A stretch of 64,000 nucleotides of DNA from Burkholderia pyrrocinia (lineage in GTDB: Bacteria; Pseudomonadota; Gammaproteobacteria; Burkholderiales; Burkholderiaceae): NCBI RefSeq assembly GCF_001028665.1, contig NZ_CP011504.1:2108001-2172000 (forward strand), read 5' to 3'. The notes beneath the pieces were generated by a model, which was not told the DNA's origin, searched no databases, and saw nothing but the letters and a program-made list of their open reading frames with translations. The stretch's first letter is position 1. Each line of letters starts with the position of its first letter. Below are positions 25,876-55,857 of this stretch, in pieces. Position numbers and translations under genes: made by a program.

Positions 25876-26181
25876 TCAGCGGGCCGCCATGCGCTGGCGC
25901 ATGAAACTGCCGATCTGCGCGAGCGTGACGTAGCCGTTGTGCTGCGCGTCGATCTCGTCGAAATGCTGCGCAACCATCGGCATGCCCGCGGCGGCCTGCT
26001 CGCGGGTGAGCTTGCCGTCGTGCGTCGTGTTTGCGGTGGCGAAGCGGGTCTGCAACTGCATGAGCGCATGTTCGACGCGTGCACCGCCGTTCGCCGCGCC
26101 CGGCGGCACCTGCTGGGCCGACGCTGCTGCTGAGACGATACACAAAACGACGACGGCAATCATCTTCTTGATGGACTTCAT
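25876..26181 (-). CDS. secreted EF-hand-domain protein
   Basis: 101 residues. Signal peptide MKSIKKMIAVVVLCIVSAAA cleaved near ASA-QQ. The mature part has a helix-loop-helix pair: TANTTHDGKLTREQ and EIDAQHNGYVTLAQ are EF-hand-like loops, though some calcium ligands deviate (His and Gln in place of Asp). Probably periplasmic calcium binding or a structural EF-hand. Located just upstream of the two-component genes on the same strand, so it could be a sensor partner or a target (inference). Confidence 0.8.
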   Translation of the reverse strand: MKSIKKMIAVVVLCIVSAAASAQQVPPGAANGGARVEHALMQLQTRFATANTTHDGKLTREQAAAGMPMVAQHFDEIDAQHNGYVTLAQIGSFMRQRMAAR

Positions 26182-43616: not shown

Positions 43617-44408
43617 TCAAAGCTTGTCGAACGCGAGCGTCGGCACGTCGACGACCATCGCACCGCCGTCCGCGACGAGCGTCGCACCGGTCACGAACGA
43701 TGCATCCGGCGACGCGAGGAACGCGCACACGGCTGCGATTTCGTCCGGATCGGCAGCGCGCCGCAGCGGCACGTCGGCGCTGACGCGTGCGTACGCACCG
43801 TCGAGTGTGTCGCCATGTGCGGCCATCAGCGGCTCCATTTCCGCGTCGGCCATCGGCGTGCGGACCCAGCCCGGACAGACGGCGTTCGCCCGCACGCCGT
43901 GCGGGCCGTAGTCGCGCGCGAGCGACCGCGCGAGCCCGAGCAGCGCGTGCTTGCCGACCGTGTAGCCGCACACGCCGGGCCCGGCCGCGAGCGCCGCGAT
44001 CGACGCGACCAGCACGATGCTGCCGCGCTGCGCAATCAGGTCGGGCAGGCACGCACGCGCGCTGACGAATGCGGTGTCGAGGTTTGCGTGCATCGCGTCG
44101 CGCCACTGCGCGTCGTCGGTTTCGTCCGCGCGGCCGACGCCGTGGCCGCCCGCGCATGCGACGAGCGCGTCGACGCGGCCGAAGCGTGCGGCGATTCGTG
44201 GCAGGAAGCCGGTCCAGTCGGCGGTGCGCGCAGCGTCGCCGGCGAGCGCGAGGCCGCCCGTTTCGGCGGCCAGCGCGTCGAGCGGCGCTTGACGCCGCCC
44301 GATCAGCACGACGCGATCGCCGCGACTGGCGAAGCGGCGCGCGCATGCTGCGCCGATGCCGGTGCCCGCACCGGTGATGGCGATCGTGCGCGGTTGCGGG
44401 TGTGTCAT
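43617..44408 (-). CDS. short-chain dehydrogenase/reductase
   Basis: 263 residues. TGAGTGIG cofactor loop, ALVACAGG, catalytic Ser in VASIAA and YTVGK (Tyr-x-x-x-Lys). C-terminal VTGATLVADGGAM. Start 44408 has GGAGAAC upstream. The gene lies 196 bp upstream of the LysR gene on the same strand, with a GC-rich stem between. Substrate unknown. Confidence 0.9.
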   Translation of the reverse strand: MTHPQPRTIAITGAGTGIGAACARRFASRGDRVVLIGRRQAPLDALAAETGGLALAGDAARTADWTGFLPRIAARFGRVDALVACAGGHGVGRADETDDAQWRDAMHANLDTAFVSARACLPDLIAQRGSIVLVASIAALAAGPGVCGYTVGKHALLGLARSLARDYGPHGVRANAVCPGWVRTPMADAEMEPLMAAHGDTLDGAYARVSADVPLRRAADPDEIAAVCAFLASPDASFVTGATLVADGGAMVVDVPTLAFDKL

Positions 44409-44811
44409 GTCGTTCTCCGGAAGGGGGTCGTTTCCGGTCACTTTAGGCGGCACCGGCAAACGCGGGTATCAGCCGAAAGGATGAACGCGGAGGGCATCCG
44501 CCCGGCAGGAACAGGCGTGGCCCATTTTGCAAAAGCTGACGATGTCCGGCGTCGAATCGCTCTATCCTCCACATTTTTGGGATAAGTCACGAAAGCCCGG
44601 CAAAATAGCGCGGGCGAGCGAGCGCATCGACGCGCGGCGCGTCGACGGCCGATTCCGGCGTGCGTGCGGAGCAGCAGGCCGGAGAGATCGGCGCGAGCAT
44701 GCGCCCGATGTGCAGGCATCGTGTTTGCCGATGGATCGTGTCGCCACGGCGTTTCTTCCGGTTGCGCGTTGGCGCGGCCGGACCATCGACAAGAACAGGG
44801 AGGGGCCGGCA
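44409..44811. other. 403-bp intergenic region between divergent SDR and metallopeptidase genes
   Basis: No coding frame with a ribosome site was found. There is an AT-richer island near 44520-44600 (CATTTTGCAAAAG, CCACATTTTTGGG), which probably holds promoters. Nothing else recognisable. Confidence 0.5.
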
Positions 44812-45693
44812 ATGAGGCTGGACGACGAAAGAGAAAGCGTGAACGTCGAGGATCGCCGCGGCGCCGGCGGTTTCGGCGGCGGGCGCGGCGCGACGATCGG
44901 CATCGGCACGATTGTGGTCGCGCTGGCCGCGTCGTATTTCTTCGGGATCGACCCGCGCGTGGTGCTCGAAGGCGCATCGGCGCTGCAGGGCCGCCAGCAG
45001 CAGGCGCAGCCTGCGCCGACGCAACGTCAGGGCGCGCCGGCGAACGATCCGGGCTCGGTGTTTACGCGCAAGGTGCTCGGCAATATCGAGCGCACGTGGA
45101 CGGGCGTGTTCAACACGCAGTTGCATGCGCAGTACGAGCCGCCGAAGCTCGTGATGTTCACGAACTCGACGCCGACCGCATGCGGCACGGGCCAGACGGC
45201 GATGGGGCCGTTCTATTGTCCGGCCGACCGCAAGGTCTATATCGATCTCGGCTTCTACGACGAGTTGCGCAAGCGTTTCGGCGCGGGCGGCGATTTCGCG
45301 CAGGCTTACGTGATCGCGCACGAAGTCGGCCATCACGTGCAGAACCTGCTCGGTATTTCCGACAAGGTCGACGCCGCACGCAGGCGTTCGAGCCAGGCGC
45401 GCTCGAACGCGCTGTCGGTGCGGATGGAACTGCAGGCCGATTGCTTCGCCGGCGTGTGGGCGAACAACGCGCAGCACGCGAACCAGCGGCTGATGGAACC
45501 CGGCGATTTCGAGCAGGGGCTGAAGGCGGCGGCCGCGATCGGCGACGATCGGCTGCAGCAGCAAGGGCAGGGTTATGTCGTGCCGGAAAGCTTCACGCAC
45601 GGCAGCAGCGACCAGCGCGTGTACTGGCTGCGGCGCGGGATGGAGGCGGGCCAACTGAGCGCCTGCGACACGTTCGCCGCGAACGCGCGCTGA
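44812..45693 (+). CDS. YpfJ-family neutral zinc metallopeptidase
   Basis: 293 residues. A polar N-terminus of 25 residues, one membrane helix (ATIGIGTIVVALAASYFFG, residues 27-45), then the zinc-binding domain with HEVGH at 170-174 (H-E-x-x-H) and the downstream MELQADCFAGVWA with the third ligand region. Start 44812 follows GGGAGGGGCC. The membrane-anchored topology places the catalytic domain in the periplasm. Family members are called zinc metalloproteases on motif grounds; substrates unknown. Two four-residue cysteine stretches (CGTG, YCPA) may form a disulfide. Confidence 0.9.
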   Translation: MRLDDERESVNVEDRRGAGGFGGGRGATIGIGTIVVALAASYFFGIDPRVVLEGASALQGRQQQAQPAPTQRQGAPANDPGSVFTRKVLGNIERTWTGVFNTQLHAQYEPPKLVMFTNSTPTACGTGQTAMGPFYCPADRKVYIDLGFYDELRKRFGAGGDFAQAYVIAHEVGHHVQNLLGISDKVDAARRRSSQARSNALSVRMELQADCFAGVWANNAQHANQRLMEPGDFEQGLKAAAAIGDDRLQQQGQGYVVPESFTHGSSDQRVYWLRRGMEAGQLSACDTFAANAR

Positions 45694-45730
45694 CGGAGGG
45701 CGCGCACCGTCGCGCCCGCATCGTCTGGGC

Positions 45731-45834
45731 CGACCCGCCGACCCGCCGACCCGCCGACCCGCCGACCCGCCGACCCGCCGACCCGCCAAACCGCCAAACC
45801 GCCAAACCGCCAAACCGCCAAACCGCCAAACCGG
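45731..45834. repeat. octanucleotide minisatellite: CGACCCGC x7 followed by CAAACCGC x5 and CAAACCGG
   Basis: Thirteen consecutive 8-bp units without interruption: seven CGACCCGC (45731-45786), five CAAACCGC (45787-45826) and one CAAACCGG (45827-45834). The two halves differ at two positions (GA/AA and C/A), so the array has a sharp change of unit. It lies between the metallopeptidase stop and the first activator box. Confidence 0.97.
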
Positions 45835-45880
45835 CCGGCCACACCGGACACACCGGCTGAACCGGCCACACCGGGACGAC

Positions 45881-45923
45881 TTGCCGATTTGTGCTCACCG
45901 GCGCTTTTAGGCGCCGGTAGGCT
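45881..45923 (+). promoter_or_regulatory. activator box A and -10 element before the LuxR-type gene
   Basis: TTGCCGATTTGTGCTC at 45881-45896 differs from the shared consensus TTGCCGATTTGCGCTA at two positions. A -10-like TAGGCT starts at 45918, 37 bp after the box start. Between them lies a perfect 8-bp inverted repeat ACCGGCGC-N6-GCGCCGGT (45897-45918), not present at the other three copies. The LuxR start is at 45965. Confidence 0.7.
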
Positions 45924-45964
45924 GGCCCGAACTTCGACGCGTTCGACCGCCAGCCGACTCCACC

Positions 45965-46708
45965 ATGCCGACCCCATCCGTTCCCGCCGACCAGTGCGCC
46001 GCCGACGACTGGCAACGCGCGCTGCGCGCGTGCGTGGACGCGTTCGACGCGTTCGCGAGCCCGTCCGCGATCGTGTTCTACCGGCTCGACCAGAGCGGCG
46101 AACCGGCCGATTTCGAGCTGTTCGGGATGTCGGAGTCGATGCATCGCACCTATGTCGCGCGTTACCGGATGCTCGATCCGCTGCATCCGTCGCGTTGCGC
46201 GGCAGGGGAATGCGCGGTCGTCACGCTCGCTTCCCAATTGCCTGACGAAAGACGCGAGGCGTCCGCGTACTGGACCCGTTTCCTGCGGCGCCACGACGTG
46301 GCCGACGTCGTCGAGATCTGGCTGCGTGACGCGGGCCGCACGGTCGGCGCGTTCTCGTTGCTGCGCTTCGGCACGGATGAAGCGGGCGGAGGCGCGGCCG
46401 GGAACAGCACGGCGGGCCGGTTCGCGCCCGGCGAGGTCGACGCGCTCGCCCGGCTGCAGCCTGTCGCCGAAGCCGCGCTGAGCCCGCTGCTGCGCGCGCG
46501 GCGCGGGATTCACCGGATCGGCTGCGAGGAACGGCTGACCTATCGCGAGGAACAGATCGCGCGCCTCGTGCGCGACGGCCGTTCGAACAAGGAGATCGCG
46601 CGCGATCTCGCGCTTGGCCAACCGACCATCAAGACGCACCTGATGCGCATGTACCGCAAGCTCGGCGTGTCGAATCGCACTGAACTGGTCGGCGCGTTGT
46701 TTCTGTAA
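45965..46708 (+). CDS. LuxR-family transcriptional regulator
   Basis: 247 residues. The last 65 residues are a LuxR-type helix-turn-helix: LTYREEQIARLVRDGRSNKE, then IARDLALGQPTIKTHLMRMY and RKLGVSNRTELVGALFL. The N-terminal 160 residues lack AHL-binding motifs and show no obvious GAF pattern; they may sense another ligand. It is read toward the aldehyde dehydrogenase gene 115 bp away and has its own box, so autoregulation or shared control is likely. Confidence 0.88.
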   Translation: MPTPSVPADQCAADDWQRALRACVDAFDAFASPSAIVFYRLDQSGEPADFELFGMSESMHRTYVARYRMLDPLHPSRCAAGECAVVTLASQLPDERREASAYWTRFLRRHDVADVVEIWLRDAGRTVGAFSLLRFGTDEAGGGAAGNSTAGRFAPGEVDALARLQPVAEAALSPLLRARRGIHRIGCEERLTYREEQIARLVRDGRSNKEIARDLALGQPTIKTHLMRMYRKLGVSNRTELVGALFL

Positions 46709-46719
46709 CTCACCACGCG

Positions 46720-46763
46720 CTGCCAATTTGCGCTAACTGCGCGCCTGCCTCGCTCGATACAGT
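46720..46763 (+). promoter_or_regulatory. activator box B and -10 element before the aldehyde dehydrogenase gene
   Basis: CTGCCAATTTGCGCTA (46720-46735) matches the consensus at 14 of 16. TACAGT, a -10-like hexamer, starts at 46758, 38 bp after the box start. The gene starts at 46824. Confidence 0.75.
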
Positions 46764-46823
46764 GGTCCGACGCCCGCGTGCCCACGCGCACGCGGTCCAG
46801 CCACGACAATCATCGAGACGCCC

Positions 46824-48326
46824 ATGAGCAACACGAACTTCGTCGCCGTCAGCGACACCGTGCGCACCTTCGTTGCGCGCGATTTCGGCCTCTTCATCGA
46901 CGGTGACATGCAGCCCGCTCACGCGGCTGCTCGGCTCGACGTGTACGACCCCGCGACAGGCGAGCGGCTCGCAACGGTCGCGGACGCCGACGAGCACGAC
47001 GTCGACCGCGCGGTCGCCAGCGCGAAGCACGCGTTCGACACGCGCGTGTGGAGCGGCCTGCGTCCGGCCGACCGCGAACGCATCCTGCTGAAACTCGCCG
47101 ACCTGATCGAACGCGACGCCGAAACGCTCGCGCAGCTCGAAACGCTGAACCAGGGCAAGTCGATCCACGTGTCGCGCGCGATCGAGGTCGGCGCGAGCGT
47201 CGAATACGTGCGCTACATGGCCGGCTGGGCGACCAAGATCACCGGCCAGACGCTCGACGTGTCGATCCCGTTCCCGCCCGGCACGCGCTATACGGCCTAT
47301 ACGCGCAAGGAACCCGTCGGCGTGGTCGCCGCGATCGTGCCGTGGAATTTCCCGCTGATGATCGCGGTGTGGAAGCTGATTCCCGCGCTCGCGGCCGGCT
47401 GCACGATCGTGCTGAAGCCGTCGCCGGAAACGCCGCTCACCGCGCTGCGCCTCGCCGAGCTCGCGCGCGAAGCCGGCGTGCCGCCCGGCGCGTTCAACGT
47501 CGTCACCGGCGGCCGCACGTGCGGCGCCGCGCTCGCGAGCCATCCGTCGGTCGCGAAGATCTCGTTCACCGGCTCGACCGCGACCGGCAAGCTGGTCGGT
47601 GCGGCGGCCGTGCAGAACATGACGCGCTTCTCGCTCGAGCTCGGCGGCAAGAACCCGATCGTGATGCTCGACGACATCGACGTCGCGCAGGCGCTCGACG
47701 GCGTCGCCGCCGGCGCGTTCTTCAACCAGGGGCAGGTGTGCGCGGCCGCATCGCGCATCTACGTGCATCGCAGCAAGTTCGCGCAGCTCGCGGACGGCCT
47801 CGCGGACGTCGCGCAGTCGATGAAGCTCGGCGCGGGCCTCGACACGACCGCGCAGATCAACCCGCTCGTCTCCGCTCACCATCGCGACAAGGTCGTCCAG
47901 CACATCGAGGGCGCGCGTCGCGCCGGCCTCACGTTCCTCGCGGGCGGCACGCCGGCCGGCGACTTGCCCGGCTATTTCGTGAAACCGGCCGTGATCGCCG
48001 ATCCGCATCCGGACAGCGCGATCGTGCGCGACGAGGTGTTCGGCCCGGTGATCGTCGTCGTGCCGTTCGACGACGCGGCCGACGCCGTGCGCCTCGCGAA
48101 CGCGTCGCCGTACGGCCTCGCCGCGAGCATCTGGAGCAACGACCTGAAGCGTGTGATGAACCTCGTGCCGCAGATCGAGGCCGGCACCGTGTGGGTGAAC
48201 TGCCATATCCCGCTCGACCCGTCGATGCCGTTCGGCGGCTACAAGCAATCGGGCATCGGCCGCGAGTTCGGCCAGTACGCGATCGAAGGCTTCACCGAAA
48301 CCAAATCCGTCTGCATCGCGCACTGA
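46824..48326 (+). CDS. aldehyde dehydrogenase (phenylacetaldehyde-dehydrogenase-like)
   Basis: 500 residues, usual family length. VPWNFPLMIAVWKLIPALAA, catalytic Glu in LELGGKNPIVML, and catalytic Cys in FFNQGQVCAAASR are intact. Residues near the start (FIDGDMQPA, YDPATGERLATVADAD) and the end (MPFGGYKQSGIGREFG) match phenylacetaldehyde/betaine-aldehyde-type enzymes (FeaB class). Oxidises an aldehyde with NAD, most likely the product of the aminotransferase next to it. 70 bp separate the two genes. Confidence 0.9.
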   Translation: MSNTNFVAVSDTVRTFVARDFGLFIDGDMQPAHAAARLDVYDPATGERLATVADADEHDVDRAVASAKHAFDTRVWSGLRPADRERILLKLADLIERDAETLAQLETLNQGKSIHVSRAIEVGASVEYVRYMAGWATKITGQTLDVSIPFPPGTRYTAYTRKEPVGVVAAIVPWNFPLMIAVWKLIPALAAGCTIVLKPSPETPLTALRLAELAREAGVPPGAFNVVTGGRTCGAALASHPSVAKISFTGSTATGKLVGAAAVQNMTRFSLELGGKNPIVMLDDIDVAQALDGVAAGAFFNQGQVCAAASRIYVHRSKFAQLADGLADVAQSMKLGAGLDTTAQINPLVSAHHRDKVVQHIEGARRAGLTFLAGGTPAGDLPGYFVKPAVIADPHPDSAIVRDEVFGPVIVVVPFDDAADAVRLANASPYGLAASIWSNDLKRVMNLVPQIEAGTVWVNCHIPLDPSMPFGGYKQSGIGREFGQYAIEGFTETKSVCIAH

Positions 48327-48396
48327 CGCGCGGCGCGAACCTCGAACCTCGACCCCGAACGACCCAAGTTCAAACGATCCGACAGTGGAGACTGCA

Positions 48397-49737
48397 ATGA
48401 GCTACAACGAAGCGAAATTCTGGCATCCGATGGTGCACCCGAACGAAATGAAGCAGCGCAAGCCGATCCGCATCGTGCGCGGCGACGGTTGCTACGTGTT
48501 CGACGAAGAGGGGCGAAAGCTCGTCGACGGCGTCGCGGGCCTGTGGAATGTGAACGTCGGCCACAACCGCGAGGAAGTGAAGGACGCGATCGTGCGCCAG
48601 CTCGACGAGCTCGAATACTTCCAGCTGTTCGACGGGATCTCGCATCCGCGCGCGGAAGAGTTGTCGAAGAAGGTGATCGACATGCTCGAACCGGAAGGGA
48701 TGCGCCGCGTGCTGTACAGCTCGGGCGGTTCCGACTCGATCGAGACCGCACTGAAGATCGCGCGCCAGTACTGGAAGGTGCGCGGCCAGGCCGATCGCAC
48801 GAAATTCATCTCGCTGAAGCAGGGTTATCACGGCACGCACTTCGGCGGCGCGTCGGTGAACGGCAACACGGTGTTTCGCCGCAACTACGAGCCGAACCTG
48901 CCCGGCTGCTTCCACGTCGAGACGCCGTGGCTGTACCGCAACCCGTTCACGCAGGATCCGGAGGAACTCGGTCGGATCTGCGCGGAAATGCTCGAGCGCG
49001 AGATCCTGTTCCAGAGCCCCGACACGGTCGCCGCGTTCATCGCGGAGCCGATCCAGGGCGCGGGCGGCGTGATCGTGCCGCCGGCCAACTACTGGCCGCT
49101 CGTGCGCGAGGTGTGCGACCGCTACGGCGTGCTGCTGATCGCCGACGAAGTCGTGACGGGCTTCGGCCGCAGCGGCAGCCTGTTCGGCAGCCGCGGCTGG
49201 GGCGTGCGCCCGGACATCATGTGTCTCGCGAAGGGGATCTCGTCGGGTTACGTGCCGCTCGGCGCGACGGTCGTGAACGCGCGGATCGAGGACGCGTTCG
49301 CCGCGAATGCGGACTTCGGCGGCGCGATCATGCACGGCTACACGTATGCGGGCCACCCGGTCGCGTGCGCGGCCGCGATCGCGAGCCTCGACATCGTCGT
49401 GAAGGAAGACCTGCCGGCGAATGCGGCGAAGCAGGGTGCGTATCTGCTCGAAGCGCTGCAGCCGTTCGCGGAACGCTTCGCGGCGGTCGGCGAGGTGCGC
49501 GGCAAGGGGCTGATGCTCGCGCTCGACCTCGTCGCGAACAAGGAGACGCGCGAGCCGATCGACCCGCTGTCCGGCTATGCGAACGCGGTCGCGGAAGTCG
49601 CGCGCGAGAACGGCGTGCTGGTGCGGCCGGTCGGCACGAAGATCATCCTGTCGCCGCCGCTCGTGATCCAGCGCGAACAGCTCGACCGGATCGTCGACGC
49701 GCTCGCGGCGGGCTTCGAGGCCGTGCCGTTCGCTTAA
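48397..49737 (+). CDS. class III aminotransferase (PLP-dependent)
   Basis: 446 residues. Pyridoxal-phosphate core: the phosphate-binding SSGGSDSIETALKIARQYW, Asp in LLIADEVVTGFGRSG and the Schiff-base Lys in MCLAKGISSGYVPLGA, with the family end of VRPVGTKIILSPPLVI. Class III enzymes act on omega-amino groups (putrescine, beta-alanine, aromatic amines). With the aldehyde dehydrogenase upstream and the amino-acid/amine permease downstream this forms an amine to aldehyde to acid route. Start 48397 is favoured over GTG 48385, with GTGGAG 9 bp before. Confidence 0.9.
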   Translation: MSYNEAKFWHPMVHPNEMKQRKPIRIVRGDGCYVFDEEGRKLVDGVAGLWNVNVGHNREEVKDAIVRQLDELEYFQLFDGISHPRAEELSKKVIDMLEPEGMRRVLYSSGGSDSIETALKIARQYWKVRGQADRTKFISLKQGYHGTHFGGASVNGNTVFRRNYEPNLPGCFHVETPWLYRNPFTQDPEELGRICAEMLEREILFQSPDTVAAFIAEPIQGAGGVIVPPANYWPLVREVCDRYGVLLIADEVVTGFGRSGSLFGSRGWGVRPDIMCLAKGISSGYVPLGATVVNARIEDAFAANADFGGAIMHGYTYAGHPVACAAAIASLDIVVKEDLPANAAKQGAYLLEALQPFAERFAAVGEVRGKGLMLALDLVANKETREPIDPLSGYANAVAEVARENGVLVRPVGTKIILSPPLVIQREQLDRIVDALAAGFEAVPFA

Positions 49738-49766
49738 TGGCATGACGGCGTGAGTGCGTGACCGCT

Positions 49767-49804
49767 AACCGGCGGCGTGCGGCGTGGCCGCCGCCGCCGG
49801 TTTG
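49767..49804 (+). terminator. GC-rich stem after the aminotransferase gene
   Basis: AACCGGCGGCG-N14-CGCCGCCGGTT, 11-bp perfect arms, followed by TTTG. It sits 29 bp after the stop and abuts activator box C. The T-run is short, so termination may be incomplete. Confidence 0.5.
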
Positions 49805-49845
49805 CCGATTTGCGCTATGACCGGATTATTTTGCCTGCGTATTTT
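49802..49845 (+). promoter_or_regulatory. activator box C and -10 element before the APC permease gene
   Basis: TTGCCGATTTGCGCTA at 49802-49817 (consensus exact). TATTTT, a -10-like hexamer, starts at 49840, 38 bp after the box start. The permease starts at 49928. Confidence 0.8.
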
Positions 49846-49927
49846 TTCGACATCGGATCAACGTGTGATCGACAGCGGGCCCGGGCGCCGTAGCGCGGGT
49901 TCAGGTCAACAAGGGAAGGAGACTAAG

Positions 49928-51427
49928 ATGTCGGGATGGTCAGGAGTTACCGGCGCCGCGGGCGAGTCGTCCGCCGGCACGCCGGCCGAAGCGGGCGGCA
50001 CGGCGCTGAAGGCAGGCGCGGTCGGTTTTCCGACCGCGCTGGCGAGCGCCGTCGGCCTCATCATGGCAAGCCCGGTGATCCTCACCGCGACGTCGGGCTT
50101 CGGGATGGGCGGCTGGGCGTTCGCGGTCGCGATGATCATCGCGTTCGTGATGATGCAGGCGCAGGCGACCACCTTCTCGGAAGCTGCCGCGATGCTGCCG
50201 ACGGCCGGCTCGGTTTACGATTACCTGTCGTGCGGGCTGGGCCGCTTCTGGGCCATCACCGGCACGATCTCCGCGTATTTCCTCGTGCACGTGTTCGCCG
50301 GCACGGCCGAGACGATCCTGAGCGGCATCATGGCGCTCGTCAACTTCGAATCGCTGAACGCCGCGTTCGAGAAGCACAACAGCTCCTGGCTCGTCGGCGT
50401 CGGCCTCGTGATCACGTTCGCGATCACCAACATCATCGGCATCAAGGTGTTCAGCAAGCTCGAGATCGTGCTGACGGCCGGCATGTGGCTGTCGCTGATG
50501 ATCTTCGGGATCCTCGGGCTCGCGGCCGCGCCGGCCGTGCACCTCGACGGCTGGTTCGGCGGCTCGGAAGTCGGCACGTCGGTGCCGGCCGTGCTGTCGC
50601 TGGTCGGGATGGCGATGTTCATGTTCGTCGGTTGCGAGTTCGTCACGCCGCTCGCACCGGAAATGAAGGAGCCCGGCCGCACGATTCCACGTGCGATGAC
50701 GATCGGCCTCGTCGGCGTCGCGATCTGCATGTTCCTGTACGGCGCGGCGATCCGCCGCCAGGTCGCGAACGTGCCCGTGAGCCCCGACGGCCTCACGCAC
50801 CTGCTCGACACGCCGGGCGCGATTCCCGCGTTCGCGCTGCAGGTGCTCGGCCCGTTCGGCCGCATCTGGTTCGGCGTCGCGTTCCTGTTCGCGGGCGCCG
50901 CGACGATCAACACGCTGATGGCCGGGCTGCCGCGCATCCTGTACGGGATGGCGATCGACGGCGCGCTGCCGCGCTGCTTCGCGTACCTGCATCCGCGCTT
51001 CAAGACGCCGGTGGTCGGCATCGTCGCGGCGGCCGTCGTGCCGATCTTCCATGCGTGGCTGATCAACGGCAATCTCGACAGCATCCTGCACCTGGTGCTC
51101 GCCGCGACCTGCGCGTGGGGCACCGCGTACCTGCTCGTCACCGCGTCGGTCGTGATGCTGCGCATCCGCCGCCCGGACCTGCCGCGCCCGTACCGTTCGC
51201 CGCTGTTCCCGCTGCCGCAGATCGTGTCGAGCGTCGGCATCGTGCTCGCGATCTGGTACATCACGCCGCCCGGCATGAACGCGCGCGACATCTACGTGCC
51301 GTTCGGCGCGATGCTCGGGCTCACTGCGCTGTATGCGCTGTTCTGGACGCTCGTCGTGCAGCGCCGGCATCCGTTCAGGCCGGTGCCGGTCGAGGAAGTG
51401 CTGCGCAACGAGCACGTCGCATCGTGA
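49928..51427 (+). CDS. APC-family amino acid/amine permease
   Basis: 499 residues with about 12 hydrophobic helices. The first is GFPTALASAVGLIMASPVIL; AEAAAMLPTAGSVYDYLSCG-like (TFSEAAAMLPTAGSVYDYLS) is the APC fingerprint of helix 2; EMKEPGRTIPRAMTIG follows helix 7. The N-terminal 33 residues are polar Gly/Ala-rich. Start 49928 follows AAGGAGACTAAG. It is the likely uptake system for the amine handled by the aminotransferase and aldehyde dehydrogenase genes, and it overlaps the next gene by GTGA. Confidence 0.92.
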   Translation: MSGWSGVTGAAGESSAGTPAEAGGTALKAGAVGFPTALASAVGLIMASPVILTATSGFGMGGWAFAVAMIIAFVMMQAQATTFSEAAAMLPTAGSVYDYLSCGLGRFWAITGTISAYFLVHVFAGTAETILSGIMALVNFESLNAAFEKHNSSWLVGVGLVITFAITNIIGIKVFSKLEIVLTAGMWLSLMIFGILGLAAAPAVHLDGWFGGSEVGTSVPAVLSLVGMAMFMFVGCEFVTPLAPEMKEPGRTIPRAMTIGLVGVAICMFLYGAAIRRQVANVPVSPDGLTHLLDTPGAIPAFALQVLGPFGRIWFGVAFLFAGAATINTLMAGLPRILYGMAIDGALPRCFAYLHPRFKTPVVGIVAAAVVPIFHAWLINGNLDSILHLVLAATCAWGTAYLLVTASVVMLRIRRPDLPRPYRSPLFPLPQIVSSVGIVLAIWYITPPGMNARDIYVPFGAMLGLTALYALFWTLVVQRRHPFRPVPVEEVLRNEHVAS

Positions 51428-52011
51428 AGGCCGCACTTGCCCGGTGGCGCGCGGCGCCCGATGCGCCGCCACCCGGCCATCGGCCCGGCGCGATCGCCGC
51501 ACGCGTGCTCGCCGACCTGCATGCCGCGCGCGACGCCGACGGTGCCGGCAGTCCGACGGCGCGGCTGCCGAACGGCGTGCGCGTGAGCGTCGAAGAGCGC
51601 GTCGAAGGCCAGTTCCTGATGCATACGGTCAGCGTGACGGTGTCGGCGACCGTACGCGGCCCGGCCGCCGAGGGCCGCGCCCGCGTGCGGCAAACCGGCT
51701 GGCTGCGTCGCACCGGCATCGATGCAGTGCCCGCGCCGGGATGCGACCCCGGGTTCGTCGACACGGTGGCTGCGCTGGTCGCCGAGCCGTCGCTGGCCGA
51801 CGCGCTGCGGCTGCTGCACCTGACCGACTGCGCGATCGACGCGCGCGACGGCCGCTGGACGCTCGCGATCGTGCCGTTCGGCGGCAGCGAGGTCGTGAAC
51901 CGGATGCCGTCGTTTCGCCGCTACGTCCGGCTGACCGGCGAGCAGGCCGCCGCGCTGTCGGCGGCCTGTCTTGCGTTCGAAACCGCACTGCACGGGATTT
52001 TGCGCGGGTAA
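51424..52011 (+). CDS. DUF3156-type hypothetical protein
   Basis: 195 residues from GTG 51424. Contains LPNGVRVSVEERVEGQFLMH, WTLAIVPFGGSEVVNRMPSF and YVRLTGEQAAALSAACLAF, which I associate with the DUF3156 family found next to APC permeases; the family name is from memory and tentative. No signal or membrane segment. Function unknown. Coupled to the permease by an overlapping GTGA. Confidence 0.7.
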   Translation: MKAALARWRAAPDAPPPGHRPGAIAARVLADLHAARDADGAGSPTARLPNGVRVSVEERVEGQFLMHTVSVTVSATVRGPAAEGRARVRQTGWLRRTGIDAVPAPGCDPGFVDTVAALVAEPSLADALRLLHLTDCAIDARDGRWTLAIVPFGGSEVVNRMPSFRRYVRLTGEQAAALSAACLAFETALHGILRG

Positions 52012-52075
52012 AGTGTGGCGTTGCGCGCCGCGCCGGCGGCCGCGCCCAGGAATCAGGGTTTCACCGGAGGCGCCG

Positions 52076-53014
52076 ATGTTGTTCCAGTCACGCTCGCACG
52101 AAGACGTGCACGACCACGGGCTCGCGATTGCGGGCTGGCATCAGGTCTACCGCCAGATGACGCCGGGCCGCTTCAGGGGCACGGTCACGCAGGTGCTGTA
52201 CGACGATTTCCACTTCTTCCGCGAAACGACCAACCGGCGCGTCGCGCAAACCGGGCTCGCACCGGCCGGGCGCACGTCGCTCGCGGTGCCGCTGTCCGTG
52301 CCGCTGGCGGGCACGTTCCAGGGCCAGCCGGTCGACGGCTACGCGCTGCTCGCGCTGCGCGCGGGCGAGGATTTCGAATTCCACACGCCGGAAGGGATGG
52401 GGCTCGTCGGGATCAGCGCGGCGTCCGACATGGTCGACGAGCTGTGCGAGGCCGAATTCGGCACGGCCGGCGCGCGCAAGCTGCGGCACGTGACGCGGCT
52501 GTCCGATGCGCAGGGTGTCGCGCTCGGCGTGCGGCTGTCGTCGCTGATCGACGATGCGCAGCGCGACCCGGGCCACCTCGAATACGCGGCCACCCGCAAG
52601 ATGTTCCGCGACGCGATGCTCGGCATGTTCCTCGATGCGCTCGAACAGGGCATCGGCGTCGAGCGCCGCGACATCACGCATGCCACCTACAGCGACATCG
52701 TGAGCCGCTGCGAGAAGCATCTGCGCGACCGGCCCGAAGAACCCGTCACCGTGCTCGAACTGTGCCGCGCGCTGCGCTGCAGCCGCCGCACGCTGCAAAC
52801 CAGCTTTCAACGCGTCGCCGACGTCACGCCGGTCGGTTATCTGCGCACGATCCGGCTGAACGCGGTGCGGCGCATGCTGCGCACGACGTCGGTGCAGCAG
52901 CTCGGCGTCGGCGAGGCCGCCGCGAGCTGGGGGTTTACGCATCTCGGCTATTTCGCGCGCGAGTATCGCGACCTGTTCGGCGAACTGCCTTCCCAGACGA
53001 CGCGTCCCGACTGA
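52076..53014 (+). CDS. AraC-family transcriptional regulator (FeaR/EutR-like layout)
   Basis: 312 residues. N-terminal sensor of about 200 residues (no cupin histidine pattern but SLAVPLSVPLAGTFQGQPVD). C-terminal helix-turn-helix units VLELCRALRCSRRTLQTSFQ and LGVGEAAASWGFTHLGYFAR with YRDLFGELPSQT. GGAGG lies 5 bp before the start. It follows the DUF3156 gene by 64 bp on the same strand, so it may belong to the permease transcript. It is a candidate to bind the 16-bp box, the LuxR protein being the alternative. Confidence 0.9.
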   Translation: MLFQSRSHEDVHDHGLAIAGWHQVYRQMTPGRFRGTVTQVLYDDFHFFRETTNRRVAQTGLAPAGRTSLAVPLSVPLAGTFQGQPVDGYALLALRAGEDFEFHTPEGMGLVGISAASDMVDELCEAEFGTAGARKLRHVTRLSDAQGVALGVRLSSLIDDAQRDPGHLEYAATRKMFRDAMLGMFLDALEQGIGVERRDITHATYSDIVSRCEKHLRDRPEEPVTVLELCRALRCSRRTLQTSFQRVADVTPVGYLRTIRLNAVRRMLRTTSVQQLGVGEAAASWGFTHLGYFAREYRDLFGELPSQTTRPD

Positions 53015-53071
53015 CGCACGCGCACCGCGACGGCGCCGTCGGGCACCGTCGCAGGCGGCGCGATCCACCGT

Positions 53072-53115
53072 TTGCCGATTTGCGATAGAGGTCCTGAATT
53101 TTCGCTGGATAGAGT
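53072..53115 (+). promoter_or_regulatory. activator box D and -10 element before the porin gene
   Basis: TTGCCGATTTGCGATA at 53072-53087 (one mismatch to consensus). TAGAGT, a -10-like hexamer, starts at 53110, 38 bp after the box start. The porin starts at 53181. Confidence 0.8.
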
Positions 53116-53180
53116 CCCGTCACTCATATCGACAACATCATCGATTTGCACTGCGAATCGACGACACCAGAGGACGGGAC

Positions 53181-54389
53181 ATGACGATCGGACGACGACT
53201 GGCCGCCGCCGCGGCTACGCTGGGTTGCATGCACGCGCACGCGCAGACCTCGGGCAGCGTGACGCTGTACGGCACCGTGGACACCGGCATCATCTACTCG
53301 ACGAACCAGCAGTTCACGCGTGCCGACGGCAGCACGGGCGGCGGCCATGCGTGGCAGATGGGCGGCGGCAACCTCGTGCCATCCCGCTTCGGGTTCCAGG
53401 GCGCCGAGCCGCTAGGCGGCGGGCTCGACGCGGTGTTCACGCTCGAGCAGCAGTTCCTGTCCGCGAACGGGCAGGCGCTGCAGGGCGGCACCGCATTCAG
53501 CCGGCAGGCGTGGGTCGGGCTGCGCCAGGACGGGATCGGCACGCTCGGCCTCGGCCGCCAATACGATTCGTACACCGACATGCTCGGCGCGTATGTGTCG
53601 AGCAACAACTGGGCGACGCCGTACGGCTCGCATCTCGGCGACGTCGACAACCTGAACGCCGCGTTCAACTTCAACAACGCGGTGAAGTTCACCAGCGCCG
53701 ATTTCAACGGCCTCACGTTCGGCGGCACGTTCAGCTTCGGCGGGCAGGCCGGCGACTTTTCCGCGAAGCGCGGTTATGCGGTGGCCGCGACGTACGCGCG
53801 CGCGCCGGTGGCGTTCTCGGTCGGCTATCTTGACCTGCACCAGCCGCTCGACGCGGCGCTCGGCGGCGCGAGCGGCTATATCGGCGATTTCGCGTGCAGC
53901 AACCCGGGCGCGATGTACTGCCTGCTGCAGGACGCCGGCTCGATGCGCGCGTTCGGCGCGGGCGGCTCGGTGACGCTCGGCGCGGCGACGGTCGCGCTCA
54001 CGTACACGCATACGCACCTCGGCGACAGCCGCTATTTCTCGACCACCGCGCAGCCGCGCACGCAGGCGTTCACGTTCGACATCGGCGAGCTGAACGTCAC
54101 GTACATGTTCACGCCCGCGCTGCAGGGCGGCGTCGCGTACATCTTCAACGCCGCACATACCGACGGGCGCGGCACGACGCGTTTCCACCAGGTGAACGTC
54201 GGCACGAACTACAGCCTGTCGAAGCGCACGGCGCTGTATGCGGTCGCGATCGGCCAGATCGCGAGCGGCACGGGGCTCGGGACCGACGCGAACGGCAGCG
54301 CGGTGAACTACGCGCAGATTCCGGTGCTCGCGAACAGCAACTCGAGCCGGCAACTGGCGGTGATGGCCGGGATCCGCGTGAACTTCTGA
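53181..54389 (+). CDS. Gram-negative porin (16-strand type)
   Basis: 402 residues. Signal peptide MTIGRRLAAAAATLGCMHAH ending AHA-Q. Mature protein begins QTSGSVTLYGTVDTGI, the classic first strand of Burkholderia porins, with PSRFGFQGAEPLGGGLDAVF and GRQYDSYTDMLG (loop-3 region) and a final MAGIRVNF ending in Phe. Probably a trimeric outer-membrane channel. The activator box upstream links it to the amine genes, so it may admit the substrate or a related one. Confidence 0.94.
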   Translation: MTIGRRLAAAAATLGCMHAHAQTSGSVTLYGTVDTGIIYSTNQQFTRADGSTGGGHAWQMGGGNLVPSRFGFQGAEPLGGGLDAVFTLEQQFLSANGQALQGGTAFSRQAWVGLRQDGIGTLGLGRQYDSYTDMLGAYVSSNNWATPYGSHLGDVDNLNAAFNFNNAVKFTSADFNGLTFGGTFSFGGQAGDFSAKRGYAVAATYARAPVAFSVGYLDLHQPLDAALGGASGYIGDFACSNPGAMYCLLQDAGSMRAFGAGGSVTLGAATVALTYTHTHLGDSRYFSTTAQPRTQAFTFDIGELNVTYMFTPALQGGVAYIFNAAHTDGRGTTRFHQVNVGTNYSLSKRTALYAVAIGQIASGTGLGTDANGSAVNYAQIPVLANSNSSRQLAVMAGIRVNF

Positions 54390-54392
54390 CCC

Positions 54393-54432
54393 GGCCGGGA
54401 AGGTCTGGCCGGGAAGGTCCGGCCGGGAAGGC
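54393..54432. repeat. 14-bp direct repeat after the porin gene
   Basis: GGCCGGGAAGGTCT (54393-54406), GGCCGGGAAGGTCC (54407-54420) and a partial third GGCCGGGAAGGCGG. No terminator with a T-run was found in this stretch. Confidence 0.85.
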
Positions 54433-54560
54433 GGCGCCGGGGCGGTCAGGCGGGCGGGGCGGCAGGGCACGGCGGCTGTCTCTTCCGTCGCGTGCCATAA
54501 ATTCTTAACGATCGGCGTGAACAATGGCGTTCGCTTCAGGCGGCCGGAAGCGTCACTCGT

Positions 54561-54578
54561 GTTGCACACGTGTGCAAC
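54561..54578. promoter_or_regulatory. perfect 18-bp palindrome, LacI-type operator candidate
   Basis: GTTGCACACGTGTGCAAC reads identically on both strands, with a central CG as in LacI/GalR operators. It lies 40 bp upstream of the sugar-binding-protein start, a repressing position. The LacI gene 3 kb downstream is the natural candidate regulator. Confidence 0.8.
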
Positions 54579-54618
54579 GCCTGGCCGTCCCGCCACCACG
54601 CCGAACGAGAGAGACCTC

Positions 54619-55857
54619 ATGACCTTGCTGAGCCGCCTGCGCGCGCTGTCCGCCGCCCTTGCGCTGTCCTTCGCCGCCACGCACGCCGTTGCCGCGGATC
54701 TCGTCATCGCAGGCCGCGACGACATCTACGGCAAGGGGCTGGCCGACGCCGTCGCCGGCTTCAACAAACTGCACCCGGGCACCGAGATCGAACTGCTCAA
54801 GCTGCCGAACGCGAACCTGTACCAGAAGCTCAAGCTGTCGATGCGCGAAGGCACCGGTGCGTACGACCTCGTGATGATGGACGACACGTGGGCGCCCGAA
54901 TTCATCGGCAACGGCTGGCTGAAGCCGCTGCCGGCGTCGCTTGCGGACGCCGATCTCGTGCCGTCCGCCGTCGCACTCGGCCGCAACGCGGCCGGCGCGC
55001 TGTATGCGCTGCCGATCGTCGGCAACGTCGAGATGTTCGCGTACCGCAAGGACCTGCTCGCGAAATACAAGCTGCAGCCGCCGCGCAACTGGGACGACGT
55101 GCTGAAGATCGCGCAGACCGTCGGCGGCGCGGACAAGAGCGTGTCGGGCGTGGTGTTTCGCGGCACGAAGGGCAACCCGGTCGTGACGGGCTTCCTGCCG
55201 ATCCTGTGGGCGTACGGCGGCGACGTGTTCGACCATGCCGGCAACGTGACGATCGATTCGCGCGAGGCGCAGGCCGCACTGAAGACGTTCCTCGCGCTGA
55301 AGGCGTCCGCGCCGAAGGACGTCGACGTGTACGGCGCGGCGGAAGTGCGCGATGCGCTGCAGCGCGGCACGGCTGCGCAGTCGATCGAAGTGTGGCCCGC
55401 GTGGGTGCCGGCGCTCGACGATCCGAAGCAGTCGCGCGTGGTCGGGCAGATCGCGCTGCAGCCGCCGCCCGGGCAGACCGCCGGCCCGGCGCCGATGCTC
55501 GGCATCTGGCAGATGGGCATTCCGAAGGACGCGCCGCACGCGAAGCTCGCGCAGGACTTCCTGGCGTACCTGAGCTCGCGCGACACGCAGACGCGCCTCG
55601 CCGGAATCGGCATTCCGCCGACCCGCCGCAGCGTGTTCGCCGATCCGGCGCTGGTGCGCCAGTATCGCTGGTATCCCGATCAGTTGAAGGCGCTCGAGGC
55701 CGGCCGTGCGCGGCCGCGCGTGAAGGACTGGCAGCAGGTCGAGAGCATTCTCGGCGACCAGCTCCAGCTCGCGCTGACCGGGCAGTCGGCGCCCGATGCC
55801 GCGCTGCGCCAGGCGCAGCAGAAGATCGCGCAGGCGATGGCTGCGGCCGGCAAGTGA
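54619..55857 (+). CDS. CUT1-type sugar ABC transporter substrate-binding protein
   Basis: 412 residues. Signal peptide MTLLSRLRALSAALALSFAA ending AVA-A near residue 26. SBP_bac_1 family: FNKLHPGTEIELLKLPNANL, DLVMMDDTWAPEFIGNGWLK and SIEVWPAWVPALDD patterns as in UgpB/MalE relatives. Start 54619 follows GAGAGAGAC. First gene of the importer; the ligand is unknown. GACs and polyols, or glycerophosphodiesters, are possible since a PLC-like protein is encoded nearby. Confidence 0.92.
   Translation: MTLLSRLRALSAALALSFAATHAVAADLVIAGRDDIYGKGLADAVAGFNKLHPGTEIELLKLPNANLYQKLKLSMREGTGAYDLVMMDDTWAPEFIGNGWLKPLPASLADADLVPSAVALGRNAAGALYALPIVGNVEMFAYRKDLLAKYKLQPPRNWDDVLKIAQTVGGADKSVSGVVFRGTKGNPVVTGFLPILWAYGGDVFDHAGNVTIDSREAQAALKTFLALKASAPKDVDVYGAAEVRDALQRGTAAQSIEVWPAWVPALDDPKQSRVVGQIALQPPPGQTAGPAPMLGIWQMGIPKDAPHAKLAQDFLAYLSSRDTQTRLAGIGIPPTRRSVFADPALVRQYRWYPDQLKALEAGRARPRVKDWQQVESILGDQLQLALTGQSAPDAALRQAQQKIAQAMAAAGK

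Follow-up and report, generated by a model that had tools for sequence, protein, structure and literature searches.

EutR of E. coli and Salmonella requires ethanolamine and adenosylcobalamin, and FeaR, of the AraC family, acts in amine catabolism. The EutR motif and footprint are reportedly given in Tsoy 2009 and Luzader 2013. In the available part of one source, EutR gives a DNase I footprint just upstream of the -35 element, on a sequence predicted by comparative genomics, and eutR is the last gene of the locus that EutR activates, with positive feedback (PMC5821096). XylS is described, in the excerpts at hand, as binding two 15-bp repeats, each made of a box A, TGCA, 6 bp and a box B (PMC5481539), and the BenR site as TGCA-N6-GGNTA (PMC6449761); andR, like antR of P. 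fluorescens, is divergent from its operon and, in the portion of the article available, the P. fluorescens authors report finding no XylS-type site at Pant (PMC1360089). Here we analysed a stretch of 64,000 nt of Burkholderia pyrrocinia (GCF_001028665.1, NZ_CP011504.1, positions 2,108,001-2,172,000, forward strand; hereafter the window), in which a 16-letter box, TTGCCGATTTGCGCTA, recurs in front of four predicted transcription units of an amine-type catabolic cluster. We consider it highly probable that this box serves as single-site operator for the product of the gene at 52076-53014, an AraC/XylS-family protein of the EutR-like kind that would activate the four units.

As in the case of EutR, the proposed regulator would be encoded last in an activated unit and its site is next to the -35 position (the EutR side of this likeness comes from the available part of PMC5821096), and the window protein matches the EutR model NF007522 at 173.5 bits over residues 5-309, a value under the NCBIfam EutR equivalog cut-off of 319. 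Unlike EutR, there are in the window four transcription units with a box each; no eut genes were found among the seven cluster genes, the only ones scanned with profiles. An earlier reading made from the letters alone (the sequence-only reading) had called the protein FeaR-like; this label was dropped, since the FeaR model gives 20.4 bits against a cut-off of 199. The likeness to AndR/AntR is at the level of the family (AndR model 85.8 bits, under its cut-off of 350). As regards XylS and BenR, so far as the accessible parts of those articles go, the box core TGCC-N6-SGMTA resembles the XylS monomer site in being 15 bp long, with two boxes 6 bp apart next to the -35, but XylS sites consist of two direct repeats whereas each window promoter has one site, and box A is TGCC, not TGCA, and box B SGMTA, not GGNTA. 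Precisely, relative to TGCA-N6-GGNTA one base of box A differs and, in most sites, also the first base of box B. The sequence-only reading knew of no description of the box; the string TTGCCGATTT occurs in the literature and, because EutR was footprinted just upstream of the -35 according to the excerpted source, the kind of box is probably known.

We scanned the window with the reference box, allowing up to 3 mismatches (loose scan). The four sites of the sequence-only reading were recovered at the same places, with 14-16 of 16 letters matching (Table 1), together with a fifth, weaker match at 25907 (3 mismatches). In 100 dinucleotide shuffles the mean was 0.66 matches and the largest number 3, none reaching the observed 5; the repetition of the box is hence confirmed as real. 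On the whole genome of B. pyrrocinia (7.96 Mb, four contigs) the loose scan gave 108 matches and the reversed pattern, used as control, 68, so that this criterion is unspecific; such numbers would suit a box due to chance or to coding constraint, an explanation that we regard as extremely improbable, contradicted as it is by the shuffles, by conservation across species and by the distance to the -10-like hexamer TANNNT (see below). The strict pattern YTGCCRATTTGNGMTM matched 5 times, against 0 for its reversed control. Where a spurious box would be expected at random positions, these matches were only the four window sites and a fifth, TTGCCAATTTGTGATA (G000:C2:1958685; L031 3686), upstream of a paralogous AraC-type gene whose product is 34% identical to the window protein. 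The L031 site points away from this paralogue and has no TANNNT at +37/+38 (positions counted from the box start); on its strand no open reading frame (ORF) of at least 180 aa was found for about 1.4 kb. The genome has four further matches with 2 mismatches; none is followed by TANNNT at +30 to +45, and 3 are inside ORFs of at least 200 aa. When the sample was widened to 300 genomes of the order, 38 matches were obtained with the box pattern and 10 with the reversed one.

We compared the orthologous promoters of 33 related genomes of the genus and of the window, using an anchored search in which 6 mismatches were allowed. With at most 4 mismatches, the box was present at 33/34 luxR, 34/34 dehydrogenase, 34/34 permease and 32/34 porin promoters, hence it is kept in 32-34 of 34 promoters of each unit, and at the permease promoter it is identical in 25/34. 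The one luxR promoter without a box is at the limit of the fetched stretch, and for the two porin promoters without it (L097, L098) the stretch has no porin match. The mean majority fraction per column was 0.95-0.98 in the box, 0.42-0.54 in the upstream positions -60 to -21 and 0.70-0.97 in the -10 region, the value of 0.70 being that of luxR, where the position of the hexamer varies by one base from relative to relative. Within the genus, two near-complete genomes (G022, G031) lack both the AraC orthologue (best match about 1e-47) and the box, and no LuxR match was found in them at 1e-8. A third genome (G032; 82% complete, 1100 contigs) has no AraC or LuxR orthologue, yet one box; this box precedes a permease of 96% identity, and upstream of that is an aminotransferase of 99%, so that the assembly, being broken, probably shows just a piece of the cluster here, and we counted it neither way. 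In several Burkholderia (L070, L071, L263, G005:C5) luxR and the box in front of it are set apart from the other cluster genes by about 1.3-6 kb. A loss of luxR in G005 (L084) was considered and rejected, the gene being at C5:222593 with its own box, beyond the fetched stretch.

The sequence-only reading had left open whether the LuxR-type or the AraC-type protein binds the box, and the comparative evidence favours the latter. An alignment of six AraC-type proteins, used in a single scan, gave 80 named AraC loci, from Leeia, Pseudogulbenkiania, Vogesella, Aquitalea, a Neisseriaceae bacterium, Chromobacterium, Burkholderia, Trinickia, Caballeronia, Ralstonia, Paraburkholderia, Pandoraea and Pseudomonas. 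We considered as a box any site with a matrix score ≥17 anywhere in the stretch, and as LuxR any tblastn match with E <1e-20. Boxes were present in 76/80 loci (210 in all, against 1 with the reversed matrix): 58 loci had box and LuxR, 18 the box without LuxR, 4 neither, and none LuxR without the box. Three of the 18 are on cut contigs (L244, L280, L306) and in one (L265, B. anthina LMG 20980) luxR is outside the stretch, displaced and not lost; because these four cannot show absence, the safe count of LuxR-less box loci is 14. When 8 genomes of LuxR-less loci were searched, one had a real LuxR (51%, E 9e-55) and 7 had no orthologue, four giving no match at 1e-8 and three weak matches (best 2e-11). 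Chromobacterium loci L245-L247 have no LuxR yet retain AraC, dehydrogenase, aminotransferase, permease, DUF3156 and box. Of the 300 genomes, 11 have LuxR matches (E ≤1e-12) and 30 have AraC matches (E ≤1e-30). In five distant genomes (G289, G228, G319, G153, G097) araC is followed by the one box and then by a divergent dehydrogenase-aminotransferase-luxR-permease-DUF3156 series, in which luxR is an internal operon gene without its own box, as it is in the Leeia and Aquitalea loci.

A matrix built from 12 box variants was applied to the 450 bp upstream of 28 AraC homologues from the search of the 300 genomes. A box variant scoring >9.5 was present in 17/28, against 0/28 with the reversed matrix and 3.3% of random 510-bp pieces, drawn from loci cleaned of box-holding ones; with a score >16 the figures were 11/28 and 1.1%. 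Eight of the 17 box-bearing homologues are 35-42% and nine 30-34% identical to the window protein (tblastn), and some of the far ones are in genomes without a close LuxR match. With eight more loci, mostly paralogues from the genome of the window and from its genus, the count was 19/36 against 1/36. In an alignment of eight homologues, one of which is E. coli EutR, the SRR residues and others of the helix-turn-helix (HTH) do not vary.

If the LuxR-type protein were the reader, it would govern luxR as well as the remaining three units, and this would account for the place of luxR in the cluster, for its own box in Burkholderia even several kb away (G005), for the LuxR in 58 of the 76 box loci and for the five distant genomes, where box and LuxR are within about 4 kb, though AraC adjoins too. 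We consider it very unlikely. The box is present without a LuxR gene in 18/80 loci (14 safe), so a dependence of the box on that gene failed, and 7/8 searched genomes have no orthologue; where a LuxR homologue is away from araC (G141:C2, L154), only two 3-mismatch matches are found, more than 7 kb off, while the AraC gene of G141, located on a different contig, is preceded by a box variant. LuxR-type dimers, moreover, usually bind a dyad, and the box is a directional two-part site. The AraC-type protein, and not the LuxR-type one, thus very probably reads the box as judged from these comparisons, and the luxR gene is likely a target of the box system and not its reader.

Both proteins could also act at the same promoters, the AraC-type one at the box and the LuxR-type one at a second candidate element or as a partner. 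Their co-occurrence in 58/80 AraC loci fits this, and in the luxR promoter a perfect 8-bp inverted repeat, ACCGGCGC/GCGCCGGT, with a 6-bp loop, lies between the box and the -10 (45897-45918) and could serve luxR as an additional operator. By eye, the repeat is found in many relatives but not all (it is missing e.g. in L088 and L094-L098), it is not seen in the other three window promoters, and box and spacing persist without LuxR; hence joint action appears unlikely, if less so than reading by LuxR alone.

The geometry of the promoters supports the AraC-type reading. As the sequence-only reading had given them, and as found again when the distances were recomputed, the -10-like hexamers start 37, 38, 38 and 38 bp after the box starts and the genes 84-126 bp after. 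In the 80 AraC loci TANNNT is at +37/+38 after 195 of the 210 boxes; among non-redundant sites it is there in 61/72, every other position from +20 to +61 having at most 2. A second, smaller heap, 26 at +25 in the redundant set, falls to 2/72 when sites with similar flanks are taken out. Of the sites linked with AraC homologues or EutR, 15/21 have TANNNT at +37/+38, against 0/23 of the pattern matches that we counted as unlinked (19, plus 4 added later). Since the distance from the box end to the -10 is 21-22 bp, the box abuts the expected -35, in the place of a class II activator; the -10 distance is constant and the -35 hexamers of the four promoters are poor (0-4 of 6 matches), as in class II activator promoters, and the earlier claim of an activator-type box stands. 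No sigma-70-type promoter was found in 45700-53400 and no Rfam match in 44000-55000. A fixed distance to a weak -10 might also be read as the box being a -35-like element of an alternative sigma factor. A gap of 21-22 bp is too long for a -35/-10 spacer and no sigma-factor family was above its cut-off among the seven cluster genes, which leaves this explanation hardly credible.

Several observations weigh against the operator of an EutR-like protein. As regards the AraC homologues, 11/28 have no box-like site >9.5 in the 450 bp upstream, a threshold chosen after the scores were known; two own-genome paralogues (L099, L100) share the SRR residues yet have no such site; and the 17 box-bearing homologues are not independent, because several share a genus and some are closely related among themselves. 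Four AraC loci are boxless (L240, on a cut contig, L298, L308 and L311), and the presence of LuxR in 58/76 box loci is compatible with joint action. Among the linked sites, 6/21 have no TANNNT at +37/+38, including those of E. coli eutS, L102 and L031; in G227 (L160) the box is 6 kb from the AraC homologue and without TANNNT, and about 0.8 kb from L119, counted as unlinked, there is a partial match of AraC type (37%, about 107 residues). No peak for a second half-site was found at 20-22 bp in the 72 non-redundant sites, in which the highest other offsets were -7, +7 and -8, overlapping the box, and then a weak +33. Finally, the E. coli and Klebsiella eutS promoters have a common TTGCCGAAWTTTGTTA starting 71-72 bp before eutS, with a score of 11.0 in E. 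coli, fourth in a 32-kb stretch, and of 5.0 in Klebsiella, outside the best five of 41 kb; because the score stands out in neither region, we considered this site as a lead and not as a test.

The features of the cluster are collected in Table 1. The best NCBIfam match of the aldehyde dehydrogenase (704 bits) is under its cut-off of 850, the aminotransferase matches structure 5lh9 (E 3e-181) and, by its position, would be in one transcription unit with the dehydrogenase, and the AraC-type protein has a C-terminal double-HTH domain (PF12833, 71 bits, cut-off 33.6). No box was found in the 450 bp upstream of the window araC gene itself, which is consistent with its place as third gene of the permease unit; co-transcription of permease, DUF3156 and araC genes is inferred. 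The sequence-only reading had proposed a coherent regulon, and for the regulator, aldehyde oxidation, uptake and porin genes it is supported; what did not survive is the FeaR label, the EutR model being nearer. The literature searches made found no study of this amine-type catabolic cluster and no specific amine.

Table 1. Genes, boxes and predicted -10 elements of the cluster (window positions)
Feature	Position	Strand	Details
Box 1, TTGCCGATTTGTGCTC	45881..45896	+	before luxR-type gene; 2 mismatches; 84 bp from box start to gene start
Predicted -10, TAGGCT	45918..45923	+	luxR promoter; box start +37
LuxR-type regulator, 247 aa	45965..46708	+	GerE domain only, PF00196 56.7 bits
Box 2, CTGCCAATTTGCGCTA	46720..46735	+	before aldehyde dehydrogenase gene; 2 mismatches; 104 bp to gene start
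Predicted -10, TACAGT	46758..46763	+	box start +38
Aldehyde dehydrogenase, StyD / aminobutyraldehyde dehydrogenase-like	46824..48326	+	PF00171 568 bits
Class III omega-aminotransferase, PRK07481 subfamily	48397..49737	+	NF005683 851.8 bits, cut-off 575
Box 3, TTGCCGATTTGCGCTA	49802..49817	+	before permease-DUF3156-AraC unit; 0 mismatches; 126 bp to gene start
Predicted -10, TATTTT	49840..49845	+	box start +38
APC-family amino acid/amine permease	49928..51427	+	PF13520 125.5 bits
DUF3156 protein	51424..52011	+	PF11354 133.6 bits; start overlaps permease stop
AraC/XylS-family regulator, EutR-like	52076..53014	+	proposed reader of the box
Box 4, TTGCCGATTTGCGATA	53072..53087	+	before porin gene; 1 mismatch; 109 bp to gene start
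Predicted -10, TAGAGT	53110..53115	+	box start +38
Gram-negative porin	53181..54389	+	PF13609 111.8 bits

Just upstream of the luxR promoter, at 45729-45827, there are 12.4 copies of an 8-bp unit, GCCGACCC, with 97% matches; relatives show little conservation of sequence as far upstream as this array. In L155 (8018-11870) another LuxR-type gene (30% identical) adjoins genes for a porin (47%) and for an aldehyde dehydrogenase (47%), in a stretch with no match to the window AraC-type protein and no box; this is a paralogous set, perhaps under other control. In Paraburkholderia (L281, L289 and L290, near 11100) a further box, with TACAGT at +38, follows the AraC-type gene by about 200 bp; no downstream gene there matches the window set, and this box is a possible extra target.

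The mechanism that we propose is the following. With an effector present, predicted to be an amine or the corresponding aldehyde, the AraC-type protein would occupy a site from about -50 to -35, adjoining the place at which the polymerase would seek a -35 element, its two HTH motifs contacting the 15-bp core TGCC-N6-SGMTA, and would then contact and recruit RNA polymerase at these promoters with a poor -35. The units switched on would be the luxR-type gene, dehydrogenase with aminotransferase, permease with DUF3156 and araC, and the porin gene, and the presence of araC within an activated unit would give positive feedback. The box is likely the site from which the AraC-type protein would turn on uptake of a predicted amine and its breakdown. 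As a regulator of the second tier, the LuxR-type protein would be dispensable: 18/80 AraC loci have the box without it (14 safe) and 7/8 searched genomes have no orthologue.

If these predictions hold, a widespread amine-type catabolic cluster gains an operator, a regulon of four units and a likely reader of the box, and a choice is made between two candidate binding proteins. The box together with its -10 distance tells linked sites from chance matches (15/21 against 0/23), and this gives a simple target-finding rule for EutR-like regulators, while an orphan LuxR-type regulator is placed under likely AraC-type control. In a wider sense, and here we consider the chances evenly balanced, there may be an EutR-like branch in beta- and gamma-proteobacteria that reads TTGCCRATTTGSGMTA with a -10 at 37-38 bp, as a single half-site, so that its regulons would be predictable from sequence, and in Burkholderia and Paraburkholderia amine use may be governed by a cascade from AraC to LuxR.

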